From Buxus sempervirens (lineage: Eukaryota; Streptophyta; Magnoliopsida; Buxales; Buxaceae): a DNA stretch of 64,000 nucleotides. Each line of letters starts with the position of its first letter. Position 1 is the stretch's first letter. Shown here piece after piece: positions 1-37,064 of the stretch. A program made the position numbers and the translations under genes. The notes under the pieces are model-generated. The model did not search any database. It worked only from the letters and a program-made list of their open reading frames with translations, and was not told the DNA's origin. The stretch is from contig OX387185.1 in the NCBI GenBank assembly GCA_947561395.2, positions 35,010,213-35,074,212 of the forward strand, given 5' to 3'.

Positions 1-435
1 GACCATGCATCCTTGTTCCGATTGTTATAGATATCTATTACATGTAATAGATATACAACAAAACAACAAAATGTGTAAGGAACATCAATGGGAGCATCCT
101 TGCTCATTCCTGCATAAAAAATAAAAACACCAAAATTAGTATCTAAACCCAAATTAATTTTTAAACATAACTAGAGAAGAAACATGGGATTACCCAGTAA
201 TATTTGTGCAATGCTATTGTTTTCCATGTATTCAAAAACCAAAATTCGGGTTTCTCCATCAACCCAAGGCCCATGGAGCTTAAATATGACATCTAGGTAG
301 GATTTGAAGGACTCCCAGGTTCGGATGATTGTCCACCCTGGGAAGCATGATGATAAGGATTGCTTAATTAAATATACATATTTAAAATATAATCAATAAT
401 GTGTTCTACTATTTCTAGTATTGGATGCAAAATAC

Positions 436-3319
436 CTGTCTTGTAAATGATAAGAATGCGCGTTGAAGCTCCGCAAGTTGGGAGGCCTGTTGCAGCACCT
501 GCTCTTGTAGCTGCTCTAGGTGGTGCATCTCCTCATCTAATCGTTCTTTTCGCTGCTCTCGGTGGTGCATCTCCTCATCTAATCGTTCTTTTAGCTGCTC
601 TCGGTGGTGCATCTCCTCATCTAATCGTTCTTTCATTCGATTAAATTCTGTCATGTCTACTGTTTGGCTGGAGGATGAGCCCCACGTCCTGTTTGGAGTC
701 AACCCCATCCCACAGCATCTAACTCGGCCATGGGTGTCAGGTCCCATGACCTGAGTGTAGACATCATCACGCGCCATACCATCTGGCGTGCCTCCAACCA
801 TAATATTTCGCATCTGTTCCTGAAATAAAGAAAAGTATTTAAGAACCATAAGAATTACATGAATTTTATGAAATTCAAAATAAAAGCTAATTCTAGATTA
901 GTTGCAACTTACAATCTTATTTGCTGCATCAGAGCTGACTGGGGTGCCATCCTTCCTAGTATGTGTTTCAATGAAAGTTTCTGCTCGGCCGGCCAATTGC
1001 TATATGGCACATGTATTTGGAGAGAAAAATGAGAAAAAAGATATAATGCGTAATAACCATTACAAAAAAAAAAAATACAACTTTATTTGAAAGAAAATAA
1101 TATAACAATAAAAGAATAAGCACATGTGAGGTAATACTCATTGAAGGACTTAAGAGGGTGACTCCTTATCTCCTTTGTTGAGATTGCAGGAAATGTGGCT
1201 TATTAAGTGGTTTTGAATTTTTAATAGAGAAAATTTTAATTTTACCCCTAGGCAGCACTATAAGTGGTTGGAAAATGAGATTTTGAGAAATTATAATCCA
1301 AAAAGGCTAGCATATGACTCATGAAACATGCGAAATTTGCATGTTAGAAATTACAACTCAAAAAGTCGAGCATGTGACTTTTTGAGTGTTTTATACATAT
1401 AAAGCCTTCCTACCCAAGAATGTCAAAGCATGGTTTTGAAGTTTTTGTGTGTGCGTGTGTGTTGTTGTTTCTTTTATATATATATATATAGTTTCAATCA
1501 CTATAAAGCCTTCCTACCCAAGATTTTCAAAGCATGGTTTTGAAGTTTGGGTGTGTAGTTGTTTCCTTATTTTTTTCCTTAAAAAAAATATATAGTTTCA
1601 ATCCCTATAAACTTAGTGAAAGCACGGTATGGTAAATAATGACACTCGGTCAAATGATTGGTGTCCGATAGCTATTTGCATTGATGAGTAACTTGTCAAA
1701 GATTTTAACAGTTATAAAATGTTGATACCATACTTACTGTCTTATTTGTCCTTTATTGTTCTTCAAAGCCAATTTATTAGTCTATGTGTCGATTGCCTCA
1801 CTAGCAAGAGCATCAGCAGCCATGTTTCACCATCTCAAAGTAGAAGCAATTTTCTAGCAACGTAAACCATTGGTTAAAAAATCATAAAGAAGAGCCATAG
1901 GATATTGAAATTCATAGATTAATCAGCTTTGCTCTCCATCATGCAATAATTTGAGGCCAGAGACATCAATAAAACTAAACTAAAAGTTTACAGTTGATGT
2001 GCAGCATGTTACTCTTTCACATCACAAAAAGTACAAGAAAGGCTTTATTCAAACTGTTTAGTCTTTGGAACTCTTAAATTCATAGGAAAACAACGAATCT
2101 TTGAAACAAAGAGTAGTATAGAAAATATGAACTTGTCAAGAACAAGATATCAGCAAAGAAACCAAACATGGCTTCATTTTCAGGAACAAAGGAAGTCCTC
2201 TGTCCTCACCAACGAGGATACAATACCATGAAATGAAATAGACATGAAAGGATTATAAATCACAATTATTCGCAATAATCTCTCAATCATTTGGTTACTT
2301 AGACAAACAAAGTCAGTTTCTTAAGCTGAAGCTGAGGTTGTTTAAACCCCAGCTAGTAACTCAGAATACAAGGCTGAGTTACTCAAATTGTAAGGCCTAT
2401 ATATTGTCGATTATAAGGAAAATAAACAAACAGATATTATTAAAAAATAAATAAAAGAAAGAATAAAGGTTTATTAAAAGGAATTATCTCAAAGTTTCAT
2501 ACCTTCTCATGTCTTACTCTAGCGAAGCTCCTCGTGCCAGCTGTGTGTGTGAGCGTTTGGTGGGCACGATGTTGTTTATTCCTTGCACAAAGTTGCTATA
2601 TCATACCAAGTACATACAAAAATGTTAGAAGCCATTTCAGATATAAAAAACAGATAGCATATGTAAAAACAATGTGAACATCTTCTTACCTGTGTAGTTT
2701 CATTATTCCAATAATATACAAGTGGCTCCCACTGGTCTGGAAGCACCCCAGGAGGACAATATCGAAATCTGTCCTCATTCGTCGTATATGGGTCATAATA
2801 TTTTTTCTTCAACTCTGACTTGTAGTCTTTCCATTTCTTATTCAATGAATGCAAGACATACTCTTTATGGCGCTCATCTACAACAAACTTTTCCTACATT
2901 GCACACCAAATCAATTTCCCAAGTTACAACCAATAAGTGCTGTGATGAAAAAACATTAAAGAGATCTAATTTAACTATCTATAATCTACCTGAATACGTT
3001 GCCACGCATCGTCCTTTGCGTCTTGTGAAACCTTTTGCCATGAGAAGCGGTCAACAGGTAGAACATGGCCATCTCGAGCCAATGTCCCGCAAAAATTTTC
3101 TAACTTAGAGACATTGGGCCCGATGGGCTGCCCGTGCTCATTAATGTCTACAGGAATCTTCTCTCCAGACCTTGTTTGCCTATGGAGTGATAGGCATCGA
3201 GTAGGGCCCCTTACCTTCCTTGCAGAAGAGGAGCCCTCGCCACCAACAGCGCCTGGTTGGTTTTCTACCATATCTTCGCACATTTCGATGTTTAAGATAA
3301 ATTCAAAGGAAAGTGACAC
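436..3319 (-). CDS. CACTA second gene, Transposase_24 (Ptta/En/Spm) type
   Basis: This is the accessory TNPA-like gene of the element. Five minus-strand exons join in phase 0: about 3319-2990, 2893-2690, 2595-2503, 999-913 and 819-436, the last possibly running to a stop at 415. Exon 1 has a basic region with PVDINEHGQPIGPN. Exon 2 has KKWKDYKSELKKKYYD. Exon 3 has the family signature HTAGTRSFARVR. Exon 4 has RAETFIETHTRKDGTPV. Exon 5 ends in a coiled coil containing three copies of a 14-residue unit, KERLDEEMHHREQ(L/R). No stop or frameshift was found in these exons. The start codon is uncertain; an inner Met (MCEDMVENQ) is also possible. The function, DNA binding at subterminal repeats, is inferred from the family. 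Confidence 0.75.
1000..2502 (-). other. Long intron of the CACTA second gene with small direct duplications
   Basis: This 1.5 kb is the intron between exons 3 and 4. It is AT-rich and noncoding. It contains a direct duplication of about 45 bp (about 1399-1445 and 1502-1548, beginning TATAAAGCCTTCCTACCC) separated by a GT-rich run and a TA run, and a second weaker duplication around 1272-1385 (GGCTAGCATATGACTC / GTCGAGCATGTGACTT). Confidence 0.6.
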
Positions 3320-3865: not shown

Positions 3866-6800
3866 TTACTCCGAATCCTCCTCGTCATGAATCGAATCGG
3901 CTAATGGACTTTGTTCCTCCATGAATGGATCAGATGGTGCATCAACAGTTGTTGCAGGTACATCTTCCCTTGCCCAACTAACACCATCATCATCTTGGTC
4001 ATTATCATGTAAATTCTGCGACCAATATGACTCACAATCAAGGAATTTATCGACATCCACATCCATATCAAACAAGTCCCTAGGTTTCGTCTTGACAACT
4101 ACATTCCAATCTTTATCAATTGGATCCGCCACATAAAAAACTTGCTCTGCTTGAGATGCCAGCACGAACGGGTCATCCATAACTTGTTCGCCAGTATACA
4201 ACAATCGGCTGAAATTGACTAGCGTGAACCCAAACTCATCAGTCTTAATGCCTTTTCCTTGTGCCATGACATCAACCCAATCACACTTGAATAGTATATA
4301 CTTTAGGTGCTCTGAATACGCCAATTCAATCACATCAGTTAGGCGCCCATAGTAAGAGATGTAGCTCGTAACTGGTCTCTTGTCCTTGGCACTTGAATAG
4401 CTAGTAGTGCTTGCTTTAACCACAACACCACTATTTTGACTCTTAGAAAATCTCTCCTTCTCTATTGTGCAGAATCGATATCCATTACTTATGTAGCCCT
4501 TCATTCTTGTAGCTATTGATCGTGGACCCTGAGCGAACAACACAATTTTTTCGGACAAATGGGATTTTGAATTTTTCAATGTCTTAACCTATTTAAGGGG
4601 ATGCAAAGTGTTCAAACATACTATAAGCAATAATACAAACCAAATGAAAACAGTCATTAATTTATATATCAACACATACATGTTCCTTAAGCCATTTCGC
4701 AAATTCTTCATTGTGCTTCTTCTGTATTACATGCACGGAGGCTCTAGAATGACACATATTAAGAATGCTAAGATGCCGCCTGCAATATATAATACAATAG
4801 TAAGCACTAGGTTTTGTTTGGTTTGCAATATATTAACAACTGGATGAAATAAGCAATAACATCTTACTTTCGATAACTTTCAAGCCTATCATCATTGAAA
4901 AGCACATATCGATGCGCCTGTGCCCATTCTACATTTGAGAGTTGAAATGGTTGGGCGCTTCCGACTGAACTTCCATCATCATTTCTCACTGGCCTATTTA
5001 TTTTGGACTCTACATCGGGCAAATATCGAGAACAGAATGTAAGACACTCTTCCGCAATGTATCCTTCTGCAATGGACCCCTCCGGTTGCACTCAGTTGCG
5101 CACATATGATTTCAAGGTAAATAAATACCTATTAATTAAAAGCAATGTAAACAACATAAATGGATTGCAAAAATTAATTACGCAAGGATATACAATACTA
5201 ATATATTGTATCACATACCTCTCTATTGGATACATCCATCGGTACTGAACAGGTCCACCCAGCATGACCTCGTCTACTAAATGAACTGGCAAGTGCATCA
5301 TAATATCGAAGAATACAGCGGGAAATATTCGCTCCATTTTGCAAAGCACGTGCACAATACGATCTTTTAACCGCTCTAATTCCTCTACTTCACATACTTT
5401 AGAACACACTTCGTGAAAGAAATTGCTCAATTCGATCAATGCCGATGACACATTCTTTGGCAACAACCTTCGAATCGCAAGAGGTAAAAGCTGTTGCATT
5501 ATCACATGGCAATCATGACTTTTAAGCCCAAATACCTTGCGTTCTTTAGCACTTACACGCTTTCCAATATTGGAAGAATAGCCATCCGGGACTTTCAAAC
5601 TCTTCAGTACTTCACAAAATAACTCCTGTTCACGCTTGTCCATCGAAAAGCAGGCAGCTGGCAAACACAACTTCTTTCTATCAGGCAATTCCATTGGGTG
5701 AAGTGCATGTCTCACACCCATATCAACCAAATCTAATCGCGACTTCAAAGTATCCTTCGATTTCCCTTCAATATTTAACAATGTACCAAGCACACTATCA
5801 CAGACATTTTTCTCAATATGCATCACGTCCAAATTGTGCTTCAACAAATTATCTTCCCAGTACGGCAATTCAAAGAAAATACTCTTCTTCTTCCAATTAT
5901 ACGGCATGCTGCTTGGATTACTGTTTTTTGGACGTTTCCTGCCAGTACGCTTTCCGAATATATGTGAAGTGCCTCTTAATTGATCCAATATTTCAAACCC
6001 AGCCAGTGAACTAGGAGGTTCCCTCATCTCCACGGTACCATCAAAAGATTGCTTCTGTTTTCGAAACCCATGATCAAGAGGTAAGAACCGACGATGACCC
6101 ATATAGCAGTGCTTCCTTCCATTACGTAAATAGCGACTGCATGTGTCCTTGTGACATGATGGACATGCAAACCGCCCTTTTGTGCTCCAACCAGAAAGCA
6201 TAGCATATCCCGGAAAGTCACTAATGGTCCAAAGTAATGCTGCACGTAAAGTAAAGCTCTCTTTTCTTGATATGTCGTAAGTTTCAACCCCAGATGCCCA
6301 CAACTCTTTCAGCTCCTCTACTAACGGCCTCAAATAAACATCTATATCATTCCCAGGGCCAAGAGGCCCTGGAATAAGTAAAGAGAGCATCATATTTGGC
6401 TGCTTCATACACAGCCAAGGTGGCAAGTTATACGGAATCAAAACAACAGGCCAAATACTATGTGTGATGCTCATACTCCTGAATGGATTGAAGCCGTCGG
6501 TTGCTAAACCAAGTCTGACATTACAAAGCTCAGAACCGAACTGAGGGTGCACATCAAGAGCCTCCCAAGCGGGAGAATCTGCGGGATGTCTTAATTTCTC
6601 ATCTTTTTTACGACCCTCAGAGTGCCATCTCATGTCATCGGCCATTTTAGATGACATATACATCCTCTGTAAACGTGGCTTCAAAGGAAAGTGGCGTAAT
6701 ACCTTCGCTGCCTTCTTCTTTCCCTTCTGTTTCGATTGACCATCTAGGGATTTCCATCTAGAAGTTCCACATATATCACATGACTCCTTATGGGCAGAAT

Positions 6801-7587
6801 CTTTCCAATATAACTTACAATCGTTTGGGCATGCATCAATTTTGCTATAACTTAAACCCAAATCTGTTATTATCTTCTTTGTTTGAGAGAAATTATCTGG
6901 CAAATTTGTGTCATCTGGGAAAGCCTCCCTCAACAAGACAAGAAGCAAACTGAATATCTTGTTACTCAATCCTCCCAAACATTTTAAATGAAATAACCTA
7001 ACAATGAAAGACAATTTTGTATGTCTTTTACACCCATTATACAACTCTTGATCAGCATCATTTAACAGTTTTTCAAACTTACAATTCTCCCGATTTTGCG
7101 TGTCAGCTGGTGCTTTGTGTAACGAACTCACAGATGTATCTCCTTCAGTCTGAGCCCCAAAAATTTCACTCAACATAACCCTAGCCTCATCACCCTTCTT
7201 ATGTAAATCATCTCCACCATATGCAAACTTAGGTTGGCTAGATCGTAATCTTACCCTGTCCTCTCCATGGTGATACCAGACCTTGTAAGTCGGGTCAAAC
7301 CCATTGCATATCATATGCTCGTACGCAACCCGACTAGTCTGATACAATACGTTACAGCATTTCGGGCAAGGACACTTCAACTTCTCATTACATGTTGCAC
7401 CGTGATCTTCAGCAAACTTGATGAACCCAATTACTCCATTTCTGTACTCTGGACTAGCCCTGCATCATCCATATATTAAAACATAGCCTATTTAGTTAAT
7501 ATTTGATAATATTTAGCTAACAATGCAACATTAAAAAAAATTTCAGCCTATTAAATACCTAGAGCTGTGAATCCAACTTCTATCCAT
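3866..7587 (-). pseudogene. CACTA TNP2-type transposase, five exons, one in-frame stop
   Basis: This is the catalytic transposase of the CACTA element. Exons read on the minus strand are 7587-7559, 7459-5219, 5128-4868, 4779-4680 and 4588-3866, all with GT-AG borders, totalling 3354 nt (1118 codons). The start MDRSWIHSSR is the typical opening of the transposase-associated domain. It is followed by a zinc-finger-like CPCPKC motif, the tnp2 transposase core, a DUF4218 region (PVHLVDEVMLGGPVQYRWMYPIERY spans the exon 2/3 join) and a DUF4216 region near 4500-4150, ending in an acidic tail. The only break I see is a TGA at 5094-5092 in exon 3, just after KSYVRN and before QPEGSIAEGYIAEE. The protein is therefore probably not made in full from this copy, although the rest of the frame is intact, which suggests recent activity. 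Confidence 0.85.
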
Positions 7588-11525: not shown

Positions 11526-13302
11526 AGAGAAGAAAAAAAAACCTAGAGCAATGAAACAGAGGCCTGAGTGGCATGTCCAAAAACATGATAAATCAATGAA
11601 ATCAATTGGTGCAGGTGAATAAGACAACATATATCCAATCTGCATGAGTCACAAGTTACAACTAGATATTGTCTTTGTTTGACAATTGTTGTAGTTGAAA
11701 TCCTGATATCTTGTGAGGATATGGTGTCCTATTCATAATGATGTAGAATTCCATTGTAATAATATCCATTTTCAGTGAAAAAGAATTCCTCCATTCTTTA
11801 TGTGAAGTTACACACACTACAGAGATTGAAATTTAATATCCGAGATGCTAATCGTTTCTTATTACTAGGAAAGGCTGAATTTCTTAAGTAGGTTGCCTGG
11901 CCTCCACACTCCACAAAGAGGAGGAATCGTAATACTCCAAAACACAACATAACACGGCCCTCAACAGAATAAAATTACTCATTCTTCTTCCTTTTCTTGT
12001 TTTCAAAAGAATATAGAAATACAAGAGAATGATAAATTAAACCTCTGAATTCATTAAATTAGGCATACAAACTAAGGGAAATATTAATTGGAAACTCTAA
12101 GTACTAAGCCAACACATAAAGAAGTGGAAAAAAAATGCCCATTAAATAGGGTGGTTAAGTCAGGGTTTTGCTGGGGGCTTCATTGGTTGGCCTAGAATTG
12201 AATAATGGATTTAATGGTCTAGACTCAACATTGGTGATGGGCTTAATGGGTTGAGCTGAAACAACTGAAGAAGATGAAGAGTGGTTTGATTTAAGCTAAG
12301 TAAATGAGTGCCACCTTCTAGTGAGCAGGCATTGGTAGTTTGACATTTCCACCCAAAAAAATTTGTAGTTTGACAGAGTTCAGCACAATGACAAGAATAA
12401 TACCTTTTCTGCTATGAAATATGGTGCTATTATTGTTAGTGCCCTTGAGAGATATCTTAACAATAAAATAAGCACTTAAAAACAGTTTGAAGCTTCTGAA
12501 AGATTGAAAAAGTCTATATGGGGGCTAGTTGTTCAAGGAAATTCTGGTGCGAATAGAAATTGCAGCTCCTCTAGGGTCCTAATCAACAATTTTTTGGCCT
12601 CAAACCTGAAGAATTGATTGAAATTTAATAAATGGACTAATACAACATGATCCAACATGCTCTAGAAGTAAGTACATGAGACATAACAGTTGCTGTAACA
12701 TATTTTTCTAAATAATTATGGTTCTACTTCTAATTGAAGACAGTTGGGTGCCACAAAACTAAATAAACTTGCTTTGGGATGCTTCATTTAAACCCCCTCT
12801 TATTTTCGTATACTTCTCACACTAATATCTTTCGTTTGCAGTAACAAACAAGTATCCCAAAAAACCCACCTTGACTGCAAGTGAAAGCAAACACAGAGAG
12901 GAAAAAGACTTCCATTTTAATTTTTGTTTCTCTCCTTCCCAATCATGATCCATCATCTGCTTTGGATTCTTTCTCATTATATTTTTTTTCATTATTTCAG
13001 TAGTTTTAGTCCAAATATAATAAGTTAAGGAAGTCTTTCTTCATTCAACATTATTGATTGCACAACTCTCCTTGGCTTTAGAACTTTCTTCTCCTCCTTT
13101 TTGCAGCCTCTTTCTTGTGCCTTTTTTTATTTTTTTTTTTTCAGTTGCAAAAATAAACTGAAAAGGGATTCAGTTTGGCCCCCCTTTAATGGGATGATTG
13201 GTGAACTTAAAGGTCCATGGCAGCTTATACATTTGAAATGTTAAATGACTTAAGCCAGATTACATTCACTAGAGTTTAGCACTTTCAACATCTATTATAG
13301 TG
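11526..13302. other. Noncoding stretch, nothing recognised
   Basis: This AT-rich sequence follows the coiled-coil gene. Its first 100-250 bases are likely that gene's 3' UTR. I see no coding frame, terminal repeat or RNA gene. T-rich runs occur at 12960-13140. Confidence 0.5.
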
Positions 13303-13639
13303 CTTTGAACATGGCTGACTCGAAAATGTTTTGATGAGTTGACATGTAAAGTTGAGTAAATAAACAATCACGCCAGGATTCCCCTCCAATGTGATTGGGC
13401 GTGGGGACTTTAAAATCCGAATATTCTCCTTATCCCTCACCCACAAATAGTATGTGTGTCCCAAATCATACTCTTATGACATCCTTATACCCTCTTATTT
13501 AAACCAAACGGCACCCACATTATATCCATTCTATTCCAAAGGCGAACAAAACATAAAATACTTCTTTATAGCTTGTCAAACTTCCAAAAAGATTTTCTCT
13601 TGCTTCGTTTGTCTTAATCTCATCAACTCCTCACACTTT

Positions 13640-13656
13640 AAACATATATAAACCCT
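13640..13656 (+). promoter_or_regulatory. TATA-box-like element in the left palindrome arm
   Basis: CATATATAAACCCTTCAC sits about 150-200 bp before the MAX2-like coding fragment, with a CT-rich stretch after it, as in plant core promoters. A mirror copy occurs near 16595 on the minus strand in the other arm. If either were active, transcription would run into the palindrome. Confidence 0.4.
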
Positions 13657-13807
13657 TCACCCATCTTCCCATCATCCTTACTGTTCCATAAGAACACTCC
13701 AATGTACTCCCCTCTACCTGCTCTTTTTGTTCATCACTCTTTGATTACTGTCCTTCACAACCCAAAAAACCAAACTAAAACAAATCAAGTACCAGCATTT
13801 ACTGCCG

Positions 13808-14790
13808 AATGATTGGGGTTTGGTGTTCGAGAACGGCGTATTTCACCGCAAGGACCCAACAACTGAGACTTCAGAAGGACGACAAGCGAACGCTCACAAG
13901 AAGGTGCTAATACATGTCCCTACCAACGAAGTCATATCTTATTACTCCTCATTAGAGGAAACCATTTTTGGATTAGGTTAGGAGAGGTACTATGATGACA
14001 CAGACCTCTTCCAGTTCCACAAGAGTATAACCGTTGATCTCATCTCTCTACCTAGAAAATTAGGATTCTTTGGCCTAGAGAATTCTCCAAGTTCAAGTCC
14101 TTTCACGTGTATGATATTGTCATTAAGAATCATTTCCTCCTTGGAAGCATTGGAGCCTATCCGCAGCCGCATACAGAGATTACACATTGATTGTATTTGG
14201 GATAGCTTGAAAGATGCTCAGTGACTTATCCAAGCATTCAACTTGAATGAACTTGAATAAGATGATGCTGACTGTAACGGCCCTAGCAATAACAAATGCA
14301 GATACTCAATAGATGGAGATTATTCTCTGATTCAAAACAATGGTAACGAGGTTCAAAGTAAAACCTAGGATCGATTGCGATATCGTTTCCTTTGGATTGC
14401 AGTTGGGGAGCTATTAATTCCATTAGCATTGGTAGGGCTTGAGGACTGCCCTCTGTTGGAGGAAATTAGTATCAAGGTTGAAGGTAACGACAGGGAAGGC
14501 CTAAAGCATCCAAAAAACTGAATTTGGAGTAAGCTCTCTCGAAGTGGCATTCAGATTAAGCTCACTTATGCAGTATCCTCGCCTGTTTAAGATGCAGCTG
14601 GATTGTGGGGATGCAATAGGTTATGCATTGAGTGCACCAACTGGGCGTACAGACCTGAGTCTGTGGAAGAGGTTTTACTTAAATGGGATTGGAATTTGAA
14701 TCTCAATGAGCTTGATTACTAACCACCACATGTCATGATATGAGTATCAAAATGCGAGTAGACTTATGCAGTTGCTTTAAGGATGTGACA
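13808..14790 (+). pseudogene. MAX2-like: MAX2-like F-box/LRR protein fragment, left arm
   Basis: MAX2 (D3 in rice) is the F-box/LRR subunit of the SCF ligase in strigolactone and karrikin signalling. The + strand here reads as a broken LRR region. Recognisable pieces are ALEPIRSRIQRLHIDCIW (near 14150; the MAX2 family has a closely similar string), ELLIPLALVGLEDCPLLEEI, and LSLWKRFYLNGIGI with NLNELDY. It then jumps to DMSIKMRVDLCS, a degenerate copy of the conserved C-terminal motif. Stops interrupt it near 13980, 14222, 14258, 14367 and 14520. The F-box N-terminal half is absent. About 40 residues before the C terminus are deleted, and that missing piece is present, inverted, just downstream. 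It is not a functional gene. Confidence 0.8.
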
Positions 14791-14792
14791 CT

Positions 14793-15059
14793 TTAATAAT
14801 ACAGGATGAAACGGCTATTCAACGAATCCTCAAAGTGACTGCACGAATCTACTCGCATTTTAGTACCTATATCATTCTTTGGTACAGGATAGTAATCTTC
14901 TCTCAACTGTACATCCCTGAGATTGGGGATCCTGAGAAGAAACATCATAAAGTGCTCATAGATTGTGCCATGGATGAAGAGCTTTCTGAAGGTGGCACGT
15001 TCTGTAAGCAACCCAGCAACAGGGAGAAAAGAGGGTCCTTTGGTACACATCCAGTTGCA
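14793..15059 (-). pseudogene. MAX2-like: MAX2-like C-terminal fragment, inverted, left arm
   Basis: An 85-residue open frame on the minus strand contains AGLLTERATFRKLFIHG, EHFMMFLLRIPNLRDVQL, REDYYPVPKND and RVDSCSHFEDSLNSR, which match the extreme C terminus of MAX2 proteins. It faces the + strand fragment that precedes it, so within this arm the C-terminal part is flipped against the body. There is no start codon context of its own. It mirrors the fragment at 15229-15495. Confidence 0.85.
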
Positions 15060-15228
15060 CTGCTCATTTCCATTTCTGCCACACTTTCAAACTCTCCCTT
15101 TTCCAGGCAATTGAGACTTGACCACTTCTTTCCTCTCTCTCTCTCTCTTTTTTAATTTTTTGTGAACCAAATGTACTTTCTTTTTTAAATTTTTTTTGTG
15201 AACCGGATGTACTTTTTTTTTTGAGGAT
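15060..15228. other. Loop of the MAX2 palindrome
   Basis: These 169 bases lack a mirror copy. They hold a CT run (about 15134-15150), T-rich runs and a short duplication: GTGAACCAAATGTACTTT near 15162 and GTGAACCGGATGTACTTT near 15199. Confidence 0.75.
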
Positions 15229-15495
15229 GTGCAACTGGATGTACACCAGAGGACCCTCTCTTTCCTTGCTGCTGGGTTGCTTACAGAATGTGCCACTTTA
15301 AGAAAACCCTTCACCCATAGCACAACCCATGAGCACTTCATGATGTTTTTTCTCAGAATCCCCAATCTCAGGGATGTACAGCTGAAAGAAGATTACTATC
15401 TTGCACCAGAGAATGATATAAGTACTAAAATGCAAGTAGACTCTTCTAGTCGCTTTGAGGATGCGTTGAATAGCCGCATCATCCCGTATTATTAA
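15229..15495 (+). pseudogene. MAX2-like: MAX2-like C-terminal fragment, right arm
   Basis: An 88-codon open frame reads AGLLTECATLRKPFTHS, EHFMMFFLRIPNLRDVQL, KEDYYLAPENDIS and VDSSSRFEDALNSR, then TAA near the end expected for MAX2. It is the mirror of 14793-15059 with several amino acid changes. It has no upstream coding region in frame. It is the best preserved MAX2 piece here but covers only the last tenth or so of the usual 700-residue protein. Confidence 0.85.
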
Positions 15496-16450
15496 AGTGT
15501 CACATCCTTAAAGCAACTGCACAAGTCTACTCGCATTTTGATACTCATATCATGACATGTGGTAGCCAGTAATCAAGCTCATTGAGATTCAAATTCCAAT
15601 CCCATTCAAATAAAACCTCTTCCACAGACTCAGGTCTGTACGCCCAGTTGGGGCACTCAATGCATAACCTATTGCATCCCCACAATCCAGCTGCATCTTT
15701 AACAGGCTAGGATACTACGCAAGTGAGCTTAATCCGAATGCAACTTCGATAGAGCTTACTCCAAATTCAGCTTTTGGGATGCTTTAGGCATTTCCTGCCG
15801 TTACCTTCAACCTTTATACTAATATCCTCCAACAGAAGGCTGTCCTCTAGCCTTGCCAATGCTAATGGAATTAGTGGCTCCCCAACTGCAATCCAAAGGA
15901 AACAATATCGCAATCAATTCCAAGTTCTACTCTGAAACCCATTACGATTTTTTTATATCAAAGAACAATCTCCATCCATTGAGTATTTGCATTTCGTATT
16001 GCTAGGGCTGTTACAGTCAGCATCATCTTGTTCAAATCGAATGCTTGGACAAGTCGATGAGCATCTTTCAAACTATCCCAAATACAATTAATTTGTAATA
16101 TCTATATGCGGTTGCGGATCGGCTCCAATAACTCCAAGGAAGAAATGACTTGAACTTGGAGAATTCTCTAGGCAAATGAATCCTAATTTTCTAGGCAGAG
16201 AGATGAGATCAACGGTCATACTCTTGTGGAACTGAAAGAGATCATAGTACCTCTCCCAACCTGACCTAAAAAGGATTTCCTCTAATGAGGAGTAATAAGA
16301 TATGACTTCCTTGGTGGGAACATGAACTTAACACCTTCTTGCGAGCGTTCGCCTGTCATCCTTCCGAAGTCTCAGCTGTTGGGTCCTTGCAGCGAAATAC
16401 GCCGATCTCAAACACCCAAACCCCAGTCATTCGGCGATAAATTCTGGTAC
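15496..16450 (-). pseudogene. MAX2-like: MAX2-like F-box/LRR protein fragment, right arm
   Basis: Mirror of 13808-14790 on the minus strand, with the same order: DMSIKMRVDLCS remnant near 15550, LSLWKRFYLNGIGI near 15600, the DCIW block near 16080. It carries its own substitutions and stops. Like the left copy it lacks the F-box half. The two arms differ at scattered sites, so the palindrome is not a cloning or assembly duplicate of one arm made today. Confidence 0.75.
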
Positions 16451-16611
16451 TTAGTTTGTTTTAGTTTGGTTTTTTTGGGTCGTGAAGGATAGTAATCTAA
16501 GAGTGATGAACGAAAAGACCAGATAGAGGGGAGTAGTTTGGACTGCTCCTATAGAACAGTAAGGATTATAAGAAGATGGAAGAAGGTGGAATGGTTTATA
16601 TATGTTTGAAG

Positions 16612-17795
16612 TGCAAAGAATTGTTGGAATATTTTAGGGCTTCCAACATGTCCCACAAGATATAAAATGTCTAAAATGAAAGTTTTTAGACAAATCAGGA
16701 TTGTCTTCGAATTACTCAAGCTTCCAAGGGCTTATGAACTTGGAATTTAGGCTTCCAAAGCTTCCTGAAATTACGCAGGCTTTCAGGGACCTTCATAAGC
16801 TTCTAGAATCACACAAGCTTCTAGAGGCTTATGAAGATAAGATTCTGAAATTTCAGGCTTCCAGAGGTCCTATGTGTTAAGGAATTAAGAGGCTTCCTTA
16901 GGCCTATACAAATTTCTTGGAATGAGCGCAAGCGTCCAAGGGCTTATGAAGTTTTTGAAGAATCTGGAATTTCAGGCTTCCAGCCATCCTATGAGTTGAG
17001 GAATTACGCAGGCTTCCTCATATCTATGAAGTTTTGAAAAATCTGAAAGTTTAGGCTTCCAACAATCCCATGAGTTTCTAAATTAAGGCTTTAGAAGACC
17101 TATGAAATTAAGAATTACTCAAGCTTTCCTAAGGCTTGTAAAAATCTGGGATTCAAAGGTTACTGGTGGCCCATGAAATCTGAAGTTTAAAAGCCTTCAG
17201 TTGTCCTATGAATTGATTTTTTGAAATTCCAAGGCTTTCAAAGGCCGAAAAAGATTGATGGAATTAGTCAGGCTTCTAAGGGCCTATGAAGCTTAAAAAT
17301 CTGAAATTCAAAGGCTTTCAGAGGCCTATGATAAACTTGATAAAATTTGAAATTCAAAAGCTTTCACATGCCTATGATGTTTTTTTGAACCTTCTTTGAA
17401 ACTCTTTGAGTTGAAAAAGAAGCACAAGTTGCTTTAAAGAAGTTGATTTTTTTTTAATTTTTATTCTTTTTATTTCTGATTTTGAGTTGTTATTTGCGTG
17501 GAATTCAATCGTTTCCAAATGACCCACAAAAGGACTTTTTAAAAGCTTGGGATTCCAAGGTTCCCAAGAAACCTATGCACTTATTTGGAAGATCTTTTCT
17601 TGGGGTAGAACACGAAGATTATTTAAGTTTTGATGACTTAAAACTTGAGATTTTCTTTGAAGACTTAGCTCTGAAAACAAATCAAATATAAGACTAATTT
17701 CTAACTCATCTCAAAGACAAGTGATGAGAAGAATGTAGCCTTATATTGACTTATTATTCCACATTTTTGCAAACTTCCCCAAAGTTAAAAGTTTA
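16612..17795. other. 1.2 kb insertion in the right palindrome arm, made of degenerate repeats
   Basis: No counterpart exists in the left arm between the CTCATCAACTCCTCA block and the TATATAAACC block. From about 16640 to 17390 it is filled with diverged copies of a phrase like AGGCTTCCAGAGGCCTATGAA at irregular spacing of roughly 45-70 bp. The remainder includes a 69-codon frame (17482-17691), which I do not recognise. No terminal inverted repeat is evident. A short repeated CTAAAC/TTCAAAC at the edges might be a target duplication but is too weak to rely on. Confidence 0.6.
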
Positions 17796-18112
17796 GGCAT
17801 GAGGAGTTGATGAGCTTAAAACAAAAGAAGAAAATCCTTTTGGAAGTTTGGCAAACTATAAAGAAGTATTCTATTCCTCGTTCGCCTTTGGAATAAAATC
17901 TAGATAATGTGGGTTTCGTTTGGTTTAAATAAGAGGGTACAAGGATGTCATAAGAGTGTAATTTGGGACACACATACCATATGTGGGTGGGGGATAAAGA
18001 GAATATTAGGATTTTAAAGTCCCCACTCCCAATCACATTGGGGGAATCCTAGCGTCTACTCAACTTTATATGTCAACTCATCAAAACATTTTCGAGTCAG
18101 CCATGTTCAAAG

Positions 18113-21100
18113 TTTAGGGTTGCTTCCATGGCTTTGCAAATAGCCACAGCTAGCCTGCAATGATCTCATGGCATGTGTTTGATAAACAAATAGCCATAGC
18201 TAACATTCATAAGCAAATAGCCATAGCTAGCAGCTAACAAAAGAGGAAAATTGAAGGCGGAAGTGCAAAACCATAATATCAATTGTGACAAGGCTATTCT
18301 TGTCCCTCTATGGCCATAATACCTCATGAGCTCTATTCCTATAACAAAATCTATTGTTCTTTGATATAACACTTTTCTAATCTAACGCGGGGAATAGAAA
18401 TCCCTATGATAGGTTTCAATCCCGTGTACAAAAGTTCGAGAAAGATAAGAAATTACAATATAGAGAGATCACCAGCTTCCTAGGAGCTCGGTTGCCAATA
18501 AGAACCTGATTCATGATGATCTCTAACTTGTCCACATCACTAACATGGATGTCTTTTAGGAGTTGGGATCATTTTTCCCTTAATGACCATGTCACTATCA
18601 ACAAATCATGGCTAAAATTTAAAAAATATTTTAGAGTAAAATACAGCCATAAAATAGCACTAAAAAAAACTCATGAACGCACATGGAATAAAAAACTCTC
18701 ACAGAGATAAAGGATAAGATGAGGAAGAGTTTAAACTTTAAATAATTAGTATCCTTACCCATACAGCCAACCTTATGCCAGTCCAAAATGGCCTATCCAA
18801 ATCACTATAGCACTGGATTAGTTTCAGCTAGTATCAAGGGATCTTTTAAGTATTACCTAAAAAACTATGCATGCCTTTATATGTCCTACGTCTAGTCATT
18901 CTAACGCCAATACAGGTTGGTCAACCCATATCAGTATTTGGCAATACTTTAAATCATAGATGGAGGGAGGAGAGGCAAGTAGGCTAATACTTTAAATCAA
19001 CAGCTAGCAATAATTAATGTGTTTTACCAAATATTTAAATGCAATATTTATATTAGAAAAATATTAAAAAATGGAAATTTGAGGAAGAAGAAAAGCTCAA
19101 AATTAAAAAAAAAATCAAAATTTGAAGAGGAAAAAAGAAGATAACATTACACAAGATATCAAGAGTTGTACTGATTAATTCCAATCATTCTTGTTGTCAT
19201 TGTTAGTTATTTATTTCTTTTTATTCTATGAAATACCTTGATGAACTCCTGATCAAAATCTGCTTCAGCCTCAAAATCTGGGGCTGTATTTTCCAAACAA
19301 AGGAAATAGAGTGGATTGGGTGTGGTTTTTGACCTATTAGGGATTAGCCCAACTTGAAGTTAATCAGTCCAAACTGTTTCCAGTATGAATTGAGCCTGAC
19401 CCCAACCTAAAGATTTATCTTTTTAATTCAAGCTGGCTTCATTTCAGATTGATGCAAGCTAAAGATATGCTTGGAGCTCCATACACTAAAGGGCATGTTT
19501 TTGTTACATCACAAAATTATTCATTTTTTTATGGCTTCATATCAGCATTCTCTACTGCCAGATAAAATTATTATGTATTTATTTCCGCTTAACTGTATAT
19601 CCGTTCTTTATAAAACAGTAGTTTGGTCCATTGGAGCTTAGGTTTGGGTTATCTGTTCTTTTAAGTTATTATGACATGATTTATTGGCTGTATAAATCAT
19701 TTAACAGTGCATATGTTTGAGGTTAGTATCAGATAATATCTATATAATATTTACTGTATATTTTTAATTAAGGTGGTCTGAGGCAGGCTTACTTTGGGCC
19801 TACAGCAAAGAAAAACTGTACTGGAACCCATTTAGGCTAGTGCAATCAAGCTTTTATTAGGATTTTGTCAGGGGTTTTTTGGGTTTGTCTAGCTCCATGT
19901 ATTTATGAGTTGGCGTGTGTTAGTCCAAAATCTTATCATGTTCTCCCTTTTCAGTGGTTGAAAATAATACTCTCATTTTAGCATCGAATGGTAATGTGAT
20001 TTTTCTCTTGATTTTATTAATATGACAATTAATTACATCTTCTCAATATTGTGATTTCTCCTTCCATTTTGCAGTCTAAAGTAACTAGCAACTTATAAAT
20101 TTTTTCCTTTGCAAGCAACATTAAAGGAAAATTTTGTATGAAATTTAGGTTCAAGGTAATTTCCACAACAGGAAATAAAAGCCAGCACTTTCCCAAAGCC
20201 AAGATTGTACTAAACCCCAAGACAACCATTCGTAATTCTACATCAATCAGAAATAAAGAGAATTTCATAACAAATCCTAGTACTGAATCATAACACAGTC
20301 CACCACTACCTTAACAAACTAAAAACAAGATTTCTATTTGAGGAACAACTACCTTTCCATTTAACAAGTATTGAAGGGCAATATAAGTGACTATCATTTC
20401 AATAACTCATACACAGATCTTAACACATTAGGGGTATTTTTGGCTTTGCCTTTCTGATGAAAGTGATTCCTAGGTTGAAAAGGTGCTTCGAATTTATAAA
20501 TAAACATTTGGTAAACCCATGCTAGAAGCAATTCCAAAAGAATCATCGCATCTCAATCTTTACAAGCTATAAATTTCTTACTTTTCAATTCATGTTTATT
20601 CAGGAATCAGTTTAGAGTTTAAATGGAACTTATCTTAAGGTCTCATTTGCCCTCAATATAAACCCTTCAATACCTATTTTAAACATAGGGCTTTCTGTAA
20701 AACTCCCATTAACATTTTCTATCTAGCATAGATCTCTCACATAAGATCCATACAAATAAGCAATGCAGAAAAAACCCAAAAACAAAATCCCCCTAATCTC
20801 TCTCTTATTGATGTCTCCTACTCAACCCAGATTTATCTCTCCCTCTCGTTCACATTTTATACTTCACATGAAAGTGCTTTTTACTATCTTTACCAAACAT
20901 TTTTCTTTTTTTTTAACCTTATCGTATTAAATGTTTCACAAGAATTGATTCTAAAGGAATCATGTCTCCTTCCAAGAAGCAATACGAGTTAGAAAGGTCA
21001 ATAAAACTCAGAGTCTTACAATAACTTATAGGAGAACCACCAGAAAGATTTGGGTTACAGTGTGGCAACTGGCAAGTTGATCACAACATATTGCGGCCTT

Positions 21101-26585: not shown

Positions 26586-28109
26586 CTGCATCCAAGGTGT
26601 CACCAGCAAACATAAGTAGCAAAAATCAACAAAAGGAATAGTTCCAGATAGGACTTAAATAGTTTAAAGTTCCACTTTTTCCTTTCTCCTCAATTTCCTT
26701 TTGGATAAATATATGAGAGCCACCAACTAAAAGAACATACAGTATGCAATTAAAACAATACAGAAATGCCTTTCCCCTACTAGTTGTAGTCAGCAAAATG
26801 AATCATATTCCTCCGTCCTGATTTGTTACAAAACAATCTTCAATTAAGTTATGAGCATCCAATAACTTTTATGCTAACACTAATTCAGATTCTTTTTGCT
26901 TTACTCCCTGCTCAACTGGATCTTTTTTCTTTTTTCCTTTTTCTTTTTCTTTTTTTCCGTATAAGTAACGCCAGAAATTAAATTATAAAGAAAGTAGAAG
27001 AGTTAGTACATGGGACACTGGGTTGGCCTTATACCATTGCAAGACTCACAAATACATAACACATTATACCACTAGTTTGGTCCACCAAAACCACATTAGC
27101 TGGAAAAGAAAAAAAAAAGAAGGGGAACTCCAAGTCACTTCTTGAATAGAAATTATTATTTTCTCAATAATTAAGAAAAATATGAGTTTGGCAAAAACTT
27201 TTTGTAAACACCTCAATACTATAAACTTAATCTATTTGCCTATCACCCTTATACATGTCCTTGATGAGCTCAATGTATTTGATTGATATTCATGTCCTAT
27301 CTATAACCCATCAAAATATTTCTTTAACTACTATATCTCCTTTTACCTGTCAACTTCTTCACTTGATCAAAAGTAAAAAGATTGCCTTAATGGTAGACTT
27401 CCTTGGCATAAATCTAAAATTGTGTAAGAAAATTTAAGTTATTCTTCTTAATATTTGCTCCGTTATTCTTTTTCATAACTTTATAGTGTGACTTATAAGC
27501 TAACTCCACAATATTGGTACATTTCGGATTTTACTATCACATTCTCCCTCCAGCCAATTGGTGCCTTTTCTTAAAAAAACCTTGGTCAACCACAATGCAC
27601 CAATTTCTCCTAGCATTTCCACTATTCAATTAGAATACCTTCTTGCCTTTCCTATTCTCATCTTGGCAAAGCTACCTTCTTACCTAATGTTCTTTGTTCC
27701 TTCAACACTCAACAAGTTCAAAAATTTTCTGTTTATCTTTTTCTTTTCAAATCCCATTATCCTCTACTAGAAGCAAGAATAACAAGATAATTCTTATATG
27801 AATTTTTTGCTAATAGAAGAGGCAAATCCCTAGAATAATTAGTTTCTCACCAAGAGATGGCTGAGGGAATTATGCATTGCAACCCCTATGTTTTGCCCAT
27901 TAATATTATCGTGGTTTTTCCTGATGTCTGAAAAATGAACTTTAATTGGAAAAAAAACAAAAAGAAAATAATAACGAAGAGAAAATGACCCACTACCACT
28001 GCCATCCTTTCTCCACTGCACTTGATGCGACAACACTTGAAATCATCTACAGCCAAATCTGACAGCAACTGTAGTGACTACTTGATTCACTTAAAATTTT
28101 ATTTTGTCT
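26586..28109. other. Noncoding stretch
   Basis: No gene recognised. T-rich and A-rich runs near 26930-26960 and 27105-27120. Confidence 0.4.
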
Positions 28110-29830
28110 TCTGAAAAACAAATTTTTTAAGAAAGGGTGCCCTCTTTCCCCCTTCATCTTTGTACTTGTCATGGAACTGTTTGTAGGTATCACTGATAAA
28201 AGGACTGAGAGATTTCAAGACCCATGCCAAATGCAACAACCCCATCATTAAAGTTTGTGATTCACAGATGATATCTTTATATTCAGTCATGGTGATCTTA
28301 TCTCTGTAACTGGCATCCTTAAAGCTTTAGGTATCATGGCCTCAATTTCTGGTTTGAGAACAAATCATTGAAGAAGCTCCATTTACCTTTGTGCAGTTCC
28401 TCTGCACAAAGGAGAAAAGCTTGGAAACTTTCCCTATCACTGAAGGAAAGCTACCTGTTAGATATTTGGGTCTAGCCCTCTTAACTTCTAACCTCACGGC
28501 AAAAGGAATGTGAACAGCTCATAATCAAAATAAAGCGTAAGCTTCAATCTTGGAAAGCAAAGAGTATCTTCTATGCTGGCTGCCTCCAACTGATAAAGAG
28601 CGTCTTTTTCTCTTTAACCATTCATTGGCTCCCTGTATTCATTCTCCCAAAAGAATATAATTCTACTGATTTAGAAAATGTGCAAGTACTTCTTAAGGAC
28701 AGGGATGGAAAGAAGATTACACCTATTTTTTGGGATGTGGTTTACTTTCCAAAAAGTGAAGGGGGCCTGAACCTATATAACTTACAAAAATTGAATGAGG
28801 CCACTGTATTGTGATTCTGGGGAATAATCAGGTCAAAAGACACTCTCTTGGTGGCTTGGGTAAAGAATTTTCAAGTTAATGACAGGAATCTTGATCTCTC
28901 AACATTCCAAATGGTAGCAAGTAGCAACTTGGAGTTAGAGGAAAATACTCAAAAGAAAAAAAGAAGCTCTACTTACTCATTGAAAAAAAAAACAAGTAAA
29001 TGCATTTCACACTTGGCTTTGGTTCAATAACTGGCACTCTAGCAGTCCTCTTCTCAGATATCTTGTCAACAGAAGTACAAACACATCTGGGTTGCCCAAA
29101 GGCTCAATGATTTCTATTATCATTGAAGATGGAGAATGGAATGCACCAACACCGTTCACTCCAAATCTCATTCAGGTTTGGATTGAGCTACAATTTTTAA
29201 ATACACCAAATACACAGGAGAAAAACAAGATTGAATGGGTAGGATCAACCTCAGCTAAGTTCTCAATCAAGGAAACTAACAATAGACTAAGAACTATGAA
29301 ACCAAAAGTAGAATGGCACAATTTGGTATGGTTCAAATATTGCATCCCAAAGCATTCATTTATTTTTTGGATTGCTGTCCATAGAAAACTAGCTACTCAG
29401 GATTCTTAGGTTCAAATTAGTGTACTCTCCTCTTCATCCTATGTTCTTTGTGGTACAAATTCAGAAGGTATAGATCACCTTTTCTTCAGATGTGGTTATG
29501 GTAGTCATGTTTGGAACTCTATTTTGCAGCAAGCTCAAATTAGTCAGAAACTCTACATGTTGGAGTGAAGAGATCTCCTAGGCAGCAAAGGAATTTCCAG
29601 TTCTTGTGGTAGTGTACAGATCAAGAAAGGTAGCGTAGCAGAAACGGTGTATCGTCTATGGGCCAAAATAAATTTCTGCATTTTTCACCAATGCGGAAAA
29701 CCAGAAATCTTCTTTATCGAGGCAATATGTTCAGACACAAGGATGCGAACTGTTCTTAATCAAGAAATTCAGGCACACTTGAAATACATAACACATTACA
29801 CTGGATCCTACAACAAGCATCCCTCACACC
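28110..29830 (+). mobile_element. L1-type LINE, reverse transcriptase 3' half, degenerate
   Basis: The + strand reads, across several frames, the second half of a plant L1 ORF2. Pieces in order are PLSPFIFVLVMELF (near 28140), TDDIFIFSHGDLISVTGIL (near 28270, the region of the catalytic YADD, here TDD), LPVRYLGLALLTS (28450), LQSWKAKSIFYAGCLQLIKS (28540), then the zf-RVT domain with KFSIKETNNRLR and HSFIFWIAVHRKLATQDS (29260-29405), LCGTNSEGIDHLFFRC, and a tail VYRLWAKINFCIFHQ (29650). Several frameshifts and stops are present. The endonuclease half is missing, as is usual for 5'-truncated LINEs. Confidence 0.85.
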
Positions 29831-32753
<2,923 letters not shown>

Positions 32754-34334
32754 TCCATATAGCTATATCTATGCCTTTACATATGCATTCTCACATGTCT
32801 AGTTTGTATAAAAGAAACCATACTACAATTACTTTTAAGCTTTCGTACAAGTAGGGGCACTGTTGTGCAATGGTAGAAACCTTGGACTCCTAGTGTGGAG
32901 ATATGGTCCCAGTCTAACACTTCATATGAAAACACTGAATATTAAGTGTATTGCCAATCCACTCCTCCCAGGATCCTGCTTCCACCAGACCTACCCTAAG
33001 TTACTGCATAACAAGCAACAAAATGCTATATAAAGCAACATGCTGAGTTTTCTCATTTCTATACATTTATCATCAGATATTGCATACTAGCATATAATAC
33101 TGATTCAAACAAATGCATTCAGATAGATTTGAATTCGAAGAAAATACCATTTTGTTAATGGATTCACATAAAGTTTTGAACATTGCAATCAATTACATCT
33201 TAACGTACCAGTCCAGTATATATAAGAGTTCTTTGGGCACTAAAAAAATGCGCTACTCTGAGGAGAAAACCAGCCAGGAGTTCTTTCTTGAGTCAAACCA
33301 TCAAAGTCAATGCTAGAGATGGCAAGTCCACAGGGAGGCTTCTAGTAACCTTGCTAATACAAGGAGATCAATAGTTAGCTTCTTGGGAACAGCTCATCCC
33401 TGCTTCATTTATCAACTCCTGCTGAATTTTTATATTTTGTTAAACTAGCCTATGTGGTCATTGGAAACTATGGTGGAAAATATTAGCAGCAGCTAGCACA
33501 AAGACTGTGACATCAAGTCCAAATATGACCAAACCCAGGTCACCGACCTCTCAACTACAACTAGCTTACAAACCATACACTCCTTTTTAAAGATAACTAT
33601 AAATTCTCAGAACTAATTTTTCTAGTGAGATTAGCCTATATATAGGCAGCCCTCCCAAGTGCTGCAATTAGTAGGGGTTATAGAAACTTGTGTGAGATCA
33701 GGAACCCAAAGGGCCAGCTGAAGTCCAAATCTTCATGGACTTCCTGTTGACGTGCACGCAGGAGGTAATGCCAGCAGAATCTCAAGATTTGACACAATAA
33801 GATGGATATGCTCAGGAACTGGAGAAAGACAGGTCCATTATTTTTCTCAGTGCAACACTGCTCAGATTATCTGGAAATAAGAAGTGGGTTCCTGAATTCA
33901 GAGGGGTGGAAGTAATTCCTATTGGAGAATATACAGATAAGAAATAAAATTTATGCATTAGGCCACTTGTGTTAACAATGAAATAGCAGCCAAAGCTCAA
34001 CAAGAAGAAAGTAGAAACCAAGGCCCTAAATGAAGCTCTCAAGGCAGCTAAATAGAGAGGAAGAACCAAACTGCAGTTTAAATGTGATATCAAAGAGAAG
34101 CTTGGCTTTCTTCACAGGGAGCTTGATCAAGATAAGCCAAGCCCATGAAGTTAAATAATAAATAAATTGCTTTCCTTTGTGGTGAATGATACCTAACCAA
34201 TTTATTCTATTGAAAAAAGTTACAATTGCCTTTAAAAATTCTCCCTTATGGCAATCCAAATCCATACCAACACACCATAATAAAATATATGGGTTGTTCA
34301 GATGGATTGATAGGTATGGTCAAATACAATCTAT
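32754..34334. other. Noncoding stretch downstream of the glucosidase fragment
   Basis: Apart from the possible SINE, no gene or element was recognised. Confidence 0.4.
32851..33000 (+). mobile_element. Possible tRNA-derived SINE remnant
   Basis: The text GGGGCACTGTTGTGCAATGG has an A-box-like TGTGCAATGGTAG. About 40 bases later ATGGTCCCAGTCTAAC resembles a B-box. A non-tRNA body follows. It does not fold as a tRNA. I cannot mark the 3' end or target duplications. Confidence 0.35.
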
Positions 34335-34374
34335 TATATGTTAAAGATCAAAGGATGGTTATATTATCTAATTA
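34335..34374. repeat. 40-bp direct repeat, copy 2
   Basis: Exact copy of 30842-30881. Just beyond it, ATATTTGGACTAT (34380-34392) is the inverse of ATAGTCCAAATAT (30832-30844) beside copy 1. Confidence 0.9.
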
Positions 34375-36852: not shown

Positions 36853-37064
36853 AGCGGCGGTCACATGTTACCGCCGCTATTGATTCAACGGCGGCAATAT
36901 ACCGCCGTAATTTAGTATCATTTATTAGCGGTGGTAATATACCGCCGCTATATTTTATTTTAGCGGCGGTAAAAACTTACCGCCGCTAATCATGCTGTTT
37001 CAGCGGCACGAACACTATTACCGCCGCTAAAACGCCGACGCTAATTCTTTGCAGTTTTGTAGTG
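36853..37064 (-). mobile_element. CACTA terminus with palindromic subterminal repeats
   Basis: On the minus strand the terminus begins CACTACAAAACTGC at 37064. Inside it are four hairpin-forming motifs built on AGCGGCGGTAA...TTACCGCCGCT: 36853-36878, 36888-36908, 36927-36949 and 36962-36987. Subterminal repeats of this kind bind the element's TNPA-like protein. It sits inside a retrotransposon gag frame whose flanking bases are AAG on the minus strand. I could not find the other end, so the element is either truncated or its border is hidden. Confidence 0.7.

Follow-up and report, generated by a model that had tools for sequence, protein, structure and literature searches.

A 64,000-nucleotide stretch of the Buxus sempervirens genome (contig OX387185.1, positions 35,010,213 to 35,074,212; hereafter the window) contains a long natural palindrome with sequence from MAX2, the F-box protein of strigolactone and karrikin signalling. 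What is this structure, how did it arise, and does it act on the gene that it resembles? The initial annotation of the window saw an inverted duplicate of MAX2 and proposed it as a source of small interfering RNAs (siRNAs) against that pathway. We find that the palindrome is the cargo of a CACTA (En/Spm-type) transposon, that it combines parts of two host genes, and that its arms have lost cytosines in a sequence context that would fit small RNAs acting on the palindrome itself. Its best-supported role, as judged from genomic sequence, would be that of a transposon-borne hairpin that draws small-RNA-type methylation onto itself.

A palindrome made from two host genes

Inverted repeats occupy positions 13303-18112 of the window (coordinates of all features are collected in Table 1), and the two arms of this copy are identical at 1503 of 1688 aligned positions, with the outer repeats counted in. 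An assembly error was considered as the source of the palindrome and rejected; dispersed copies argue against it, and we regard the structure as real. The two facing arms described initially are present, but the right arm is broken by 1173 bases (16627-17799) that have no counterpart in the left arm, and the loop between the arms measures 168 bases.

A 69-residue piece of an arm matches five distinct sequences of solved structures (E 1.3e-26 to 2.4e-21); four of these are named as MAX2 homologues and the top scorer (E 1.3e-26) is named only as an F-box protein. The genomic MAX2 gene lies on contig C14 as an open frame of 758 codons from stop to stop, or 709 from the first methionine, and the arms span approximately bases 1422-2275 of this frame, counted from its start, at 79-86% identity. 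The 3′ third of MAX2 is present, in line with the C-terminal MAX2-like sequence noted initially, but it is internally rearranged: in the left arm, bases 1423-2022 in sense are followed by a 51-base piece (2198-2248) and then by bases 2275-2021 in antisense, an order that the right arm mirrors.

The outer half of each arm derives from a different gene, and a palindrome made of MAX2 only was rejected on this ground. Each arm is a chimera in which the upstream region of an FPF1-like gene, its TATA box and most of its coding sequence are joined to MAX2. The FPF1-like copy L069 gives an 82% match running from upstream (position 13379) across the leader and the coding sequence, and the outer left repeat is homologous to its upstream sequence from 13379 onward; L070, on contig C11, is an intact 109-residue homologue with 79-80% identity in the longest pieces. 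The family name FPF1 (FLOWERING PROMOTING FACTOR 1) is one that we take to apply, given this 109-residue genomic homologue; a Pfam scan of the FPF1-like pieces returned no family. Read by eye, the left-arm coding sequence stops at the counterpart of VVKN, close to the C terminus. A TATA-like block had been noted in each arm, and both are present; their counterpart, by eye, is the TATA of the FPF1-like gene. L069 and L070 are clustered on C11, and a common repeat unit, read from the frames, lies upstream of them and in L069 on both sides.

The near-complementary arms are able to fold, and a transcript of the core would form a single long hairpin. The predicted minimum free energy of 13621-16626 is -2057.6 kcal/mol, versus -740.4 for the one mononucleotide shuffle used as control. 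In the predicted hairpin the right arm pairs with 1261 of 1440 left-arm bases, with 13 uninterrupted stems of at least 21, which agrees with the long imperfect double-stranded RNA that had been expected from read-through. No Rfam family matched at gathering scores in 13000-18400, and a known RNA family was accordingly rejected as the identity of the palindrome; the palindrome may yet represent a new microRNA (MIRNA) family.

The palindrome is cargo of a CACTA transposon

A minus-strand frame at 5095-7464 of the window contains a tnp2-type Transposase_21 domain (E 3.1e-97), and the left CACTA end, CACTACAAAAAA, lies 6359 bases to the left of window base 1. Twenty of the 25 matches to a left-end query that reach its 3′ end start at bases 81-84, with CACTA beginning at 83; of the remaining five, one is the full match of the window to itself and four start at 71, 79, 80 and 124. 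The bases CTT stand outside both the left end and a candidate right end (37055-37064), and if this candidate is correct, the element with its nested insertions would measure approximately 43 kb here. A segment of some 7.5 kb (27165-34651), with a zf-RVT frame at 28984-29406, is missing from the copy at C6:25.79 Mb and is likely a nested insertion.

At least 24 loci, the window included, match 499-501 of the 501 bases of a left-arm query at 93-100% identity, and there are partial and divergent loci besides; the whole-genome searches score the best candidates only, which makes every locus count a minimum. For each of the 24 palindrome loci, a transposase match of the same orientation, whole or in pieces, lies upstream at no more than 80 kb (at 15 of the 24 it lies 7-9 kb from the palindrome, low ends compared), and 23 have a left CACTA end within 90 kb. 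Among 20 copies that we fetched, similarity extends past the palindrome on both sides in 19; the exception, L024, is broken by an insertion. The lone inverted gene duplicate of the initial annotation is thus replaced by multi-copy transposon cargo.

Transposase matches with no palindrome match nearby are also listed (for example C14:29018750, at 91%), which indicates that some related elements lack the cargo. A copy on C21 was considered as an empty site and rejected, other DNA being inserted at the counterpart of position 13327. At L083 (C21:33042195-33042544) the element copy is interrupted at this counterpart, and the inserted DNA has, by eye, a retropepsin-like frame.

Cytosine loss in the arms is raised at CHH sites

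We compared C-to-T changes, on both strands, between the arms of 20 copies (L024 excluded) and the other parts of these copies, namely the loop, the spacer and the flanks. At CHH sites (H being A, C or T) the arms changed at 84 of 881 sites and the other parts at 39 of 964 (Fisher p 2.3e-6), and the excess persists after stratification by trinucleotide (odds ratio 2.56, p 3.3e-6). CHG sites show a smaller difference (56/190 versus 25/132, p 0.037), CG sites do not differ (33/120 versus 13/42, p 0.69), and transversions are alike, at 0.0197 per base in the arms and 0.0199 in the other parts. Both arms contribute to the CHH excess (40/450 and 44/431), as does the left outer repeat (9/99), and in 500-base bins it is not maximal beside the loop.

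The transposase gene of the same elements provides a gene-like control, for which 1150 of the 2370 frame bases were compared in 10 copies (nine fetched copies and the window, without L024). In these 10 copies CHH C-to-T changes number 66/881 in the arms, 11/328 in the transposase frame and 27/965 in the other parts; arms and transposase differ with a Fisher p of 0.008 and a trinucleotide-stratified p of 0.019, whereas at CG and CHG sites the arms are no different from the transposase frame. When the arm mask was slid along 17 copies (again without L024), the observed ratio was reached by shifts of -750 to +276 bases only; of the 6260 shifts in which at most half of the arms was overlapped, none reached it. 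Where the two arms differ within their MAX2 part, and the MAX2 gene is used to orient the change, most differences are likewise C-to-T or G-to-A (31 of 56; a further eight could not be oriented).

Gene conversion from arm to arm was considered as the chief source of the variation and rejected: in 155 of 170 C-to-T events in the arms for which the other arm has a base, the ancestral base equals that of the opposite arm, the derived base matching in 14 of the others and neither base in one, and in a tree the arms of the window family fall into two distinct clades. Among T-to-C or A-to-G events the derived base equals the opposite arm in 12 of 39, and a degree of conversion, or a number of changes oriented wrongly, may therefore be present.

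Matches between the arms and MAX2 or FPF1

The initial annotation had set a stretch of at least 20 nucleotides matching MAX2 as a test beforehand, and exact matches of 24, 23, 22, 22 and 20 bases were found. Eleven 21-mers of the window copy match MAX2 perfectly, 108 within one mismatch and 362 within two, and no 21-mer did so in three mononucleotide shuffles; against the FPF1 gene L070 the corresponding numbers are 2, 14 and 46. Among the copies compared, perfect MAX2 21-mers number 5 in each of two group C copies versus 9-18 in nine group A and B copies.

To what extent has the match to MAX2 been maintained? With L024 excluded, polymorphism among copies is flat over the three MAX2 codon positions (60/565, 55/563 and 55/566), with no sign of codon-position constraint, and at G/C sites of the arms polymorphism does not differ significantly between those that match MAX2 (108/609) and those that do not (26/115, p 0.24). 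Among A/T sites, those that match MAX2 are less polymorphic (22/799 versus 14/171, p 0.0025); this difference may reflect old C-to-T changes that were wrongly oriented, or real constraint. Given the flat codon-position polymorphism and a background rate of transversions, there is no clear sign of selection to keep the MAX2 match.

What produced the footprint

On balance we favour an explanation in which a CACTA-borne palindrome, derived from one FPF1-MAX2 fusion, probably yields hairpin small RNAs that direct methylation in cis and so raise the decay of CHH cytosines. The captured FPF1 promoter region, near the outer end of each arm and oriented inward, would start transcription that from either side enters its own antisense copy, and the resulting hairpin RNA would be processed into small RNAs. 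These would return methylation, chiefly at CHH sites, to the arms of the copies, where methylated cytosines would decay faster than in the rest of the element. Promoter activity, transcription, small RNAs and RNA-directed DNA methylation (RdDM) as the cause are steps that we infer. According to a maize study, CHH methylation peaks on hairpins, and CHH methylation depends on RdDM more than CG and CHG methylation do (PMC10760457). A rise at CHH without a rise at CG is the pattern expected from methylation fed by a hairpin.

Several results weigh against this explanation. The CHG excess vanishes against the transposase control; the right outer repeat has no CHH excess (3/105), and the loop is intermediate (3/47). 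A plain circular-shift test taken alone is not significant, as 206 of 1752 and 1026 of 8760 shifts reach the ratio. A:T-to-G:C transitions are also more frequent in the arms, at 0.024 per A/T site versus 0.017 in the other parts of the 20 copies, and at 0.020 versus 0.0088 in the transposase frame of the 10 copies (33 versus 6 events, p 0.07), which means that C-to-T changes do not make up the whole excess, unless some of these events are themselves C-to-T changes oriented wrongly. Palindromes can expose single strands, and deamination of single strands in an extruding palindrome could also lift C-to-T changes. Structure-linked mutation of this kind is the chief competing explanation, for which the mild A:T-to-G:C rise leaves room. 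The palindrome would then be a dead captured fragment and an inert passenger, its CHH excess stemming from palindrome structure or local sequence with no small RNAs involved, and the broken fusion frame of the window copy and a transversion rate that looks neutral agree with this. Even so, we consider it unlikely, although by no means negligible, because the excess is not greatest beside the loop, persists under trinucleotide stratification and against the gene-like control, and is accompanied by an excess neither at CG sites nor in transversions.

Beyond the methylation in cis favoured here, silencing of MAX2 in trans is possible and unproven: small RNAs from the hairpin family could lower the activity of MAX2, and of FPF1, in which case the transposon would influence signalling by strigolactones and karrikins. 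The exact matches, the many near-matching 21-mers set against none in shuffles, the 24 near-full-query loci listed and the lower polymorphism of MAX2-matching A/T sites (though misoriented old C-to-T changes could explain this last) are in line with such a role. We nevertheless judge it improbable, given an identity to MAX2 of 79-86% only, the absent codon-position constraint, transversions at the rate of other parts, no significant effect of matching at G/C sites, and two group C copies that have 5 perfect 21-mers each. The proposed siRNA source is in this sense partly upheld: the hairpin fold, the exact MAX2 matches and the CHH excess agree with it, while the CACTA cargo status, the FPF1 half and the lack of codon constraint do not. 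More speculative still is the idea that a transposase-bearing CACTA family retains and multiplies a hairpin (host promoter, FPF1-MAX2 sense, loop, antisense) whose small RNAs target two host developmental regulators, with bursts that retune branching, flowering and the strigolactone/karrikin response, and that the recurrence of palindromes in at least four lineages reflects selection on the hairpin. Finally, although the MAX2 sequence is directly preceded by an FPF1-like upstream region and coding sequence, as if a captured promoter expressed a new FPF1-MAX2 fusion protein, the fusion frame of the window palindrome is broken, with no intact chimeric frame and longest open stretches of 124 codons, and codon-position constraint is absent; we disfavour this reading and think it very unlikely.

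A probable single fusion behind several palindromes

At least three divergent loci (L066, L067 and L068) have FPF1-MAX2 palindromes of their own. The arms of L066 are 93% identical. Those of L067 (C15:16323500-16327000) are 90% identical and arranged inside-out, with FPF1 adjoining the loop and the MAX2 pieces outside; this locus in turn contains MAX2 pieces that are nested and inverted. In L068 the arms are 89% identical and MAX2 is contiguous to the frame end, with identical match scores at three loci. The MAX2 part starts at base 1422-1430 in L066, L067, L071 and the window, and this common start speaks for one fusion.

In a tree built for nine loci from the MAX2 part that they share, with the MAX2 gene as root, arms cluster by locus (ultrafast bootstrap 100 for the window family, 88 for L066, 77 for L067 and 97 for L068), and the branching order among palindrome loci has bootstrap values of just 32-48. 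These relationships suggest one FPF1-MAX2 fusion that would have been followed by several palindromes or by early homogenisation. Within the window family the left and right arms form separate clades (bootstrap 100 and 100), which indicates that the palindrome is older than its amplification.

A transposase of 74% identity lies approximately 4-5 kb from the L068-type locus on C4, on the opposite side relative to its orientation, and none is listed near the other two L068-type loci; that one transposon lineage inherited the cargo from another would thus be conjectural. L072 and L073 are tail-to-tail palindromes of FPF1 only; the sequence retrieved for them gave no match to MAX2. Beside L073 lies a stretch that looks, by eye, like a glutamine-rich coiled coil of the CACTA TNPA type.

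Relation to known systems

The window element resembles Pack-CACTA and other gene-capturing CACTA elements, as these are described in two sources (PMC8903248, PMC13317346): it has a CACTA end, combines fragments of host coding sequence taken from at least two loci and occurs in copies across the genome. The genes captured by Pack-CACTA elements come from several loci, and these elements are non-autonomous by definition (Gisby and Catoni 2022, PMC8903248). Captured host coding sequence lies between the ends here too, the right end being a candidate, but the element is not transposase-free: unlike the Pack-TYPE elements described there, it has a 790-codon putative transposase frame in the same unit. 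It further departs from the Pack-CACTA described in that source in that it carries a long inverted repeat, with captured promoter sequence lying toward the outer end of either arm.

In maize, Mu killer (PMC3440606) is likewise a natural long inverted duplication, with a proposed hairpin RNA and siRNAs against a transposon. Mu killer duplicates a transposase and a terminal repeat and acts on the transposon, whereas the arms in the window come from host FPF1 and MAX2 and are multiplied with the transposon. Gene fragments captured by transposable elements (Helitrons, Pack-MULEs and Sireviruses) are described in PMC13317346 as reservoirs of siRNAs that act on the donor genes. As there, captured host sequence is present and a small-RNA link to the donor genes is proposed; unlike the reservoirs described there, the present case is a CACTA element with a ready-made hairpin.

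Our searches of the open-access literature turned up no description of a CACTA element with a hairpin of MAX2 or FPF1. Inverted duplication is said, after Allen et al. in 2004, to be an origin of young plant MIRNA genes; the palindrome likewise duplicates, in inverted form, a gene that it might target, but it differs in being transposon cargo of two fused genes and in having no Rfam match at gathering scores.

This case unites CACTA gene capture, a host-gene hairpin with captured promoter regions and a context-specific mutation record, which are usually seen apart, and the mutation record is readable without small-RNA data. If CHH decay restricted to the arms of hairpins is borne out elsewhere, it would offer a simple way of testing any plant assembly for past methylation directed by small RNAs. 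Should the RNAs also hit MAX2, the transposon family would regulate the dosage of signalling by strigolactones and karrikins.

Features of the window

Table 1. Positions of the palindrome, its gene-derived parts and the CACTA features in the window
Feature	Position	Strand	Remarks
Left arm	13303-15060		mirrored by 15229-16626 and 17800-18112; inverted-repeat comparison
Outer left inverted repeat	13303-13620	+	pairs with 17800-18112
TATA-like TATATAAA, left arm	13645-13652	+	by-eye match to TATATAAA of FPF1-like gene L070
FPF1-like coding sequence, left arm	13809-14128	+	frame break near start
MAX2 open-frame bases 1423-2022, sense, left arm	14138-14737	+	80% identity
Short MAX2 piece (2198-2248), sense, left arm	14735-14785	+	51 bases; alignment
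MAX2 open-frame bases 2021-2275, antisense, left arm	14798-15053	-	85% identity
Loop between arms	15061-15228	none	168 bases
MAX2 open-frame bases 2021-2275, sense, right arm	15236-15490	+	86% identity
Short MAX2 piece (2198-2248), antisense, right arm	15503-15553	-	alignment
MAX2 open-frame bases 1422-2022, antisense, right arm	15551-16141	-	79% identity
FPF1-like sequence with TATA, right arm	16142-16626	-	TATA TTTATATA at 16595-16602
Unpaired segment within right arm	16627-17799	none	1173 bases; degenerate direct repeats
Outer right inverted repeat	17800-18112	-	partner of outer left repeat
Weak Transposase_24 (Ptta/En/Spm) match	418-897	-	21.3 bits, under its 28.7 cut-off
DUF4216 frame of CACTA element	3869-4588	-	domain scan
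CACTA transposase frame	5095-7464	-	790 codons stop to stop; Transpos_assoc, Transposase_21, DUF4218
Candidate right CACTA end	37055-37064	-	10 bases, TTTTGTAGTG then CTT

Elsewhere in the window, 44034-44205 and 48250-48421 form a 172-base inverted pair, 74% complementary and 4 kb apart. Direct-repeat arrays occupy 37767-38259 and 45197-45473, one with AACACGAAATGGTTCCAG-like units and the other with an 80-base period, and a minus-strand frame at 61004-61684 contains a protein kinase domain (Pfam Pkinase, E 3.5e-21).

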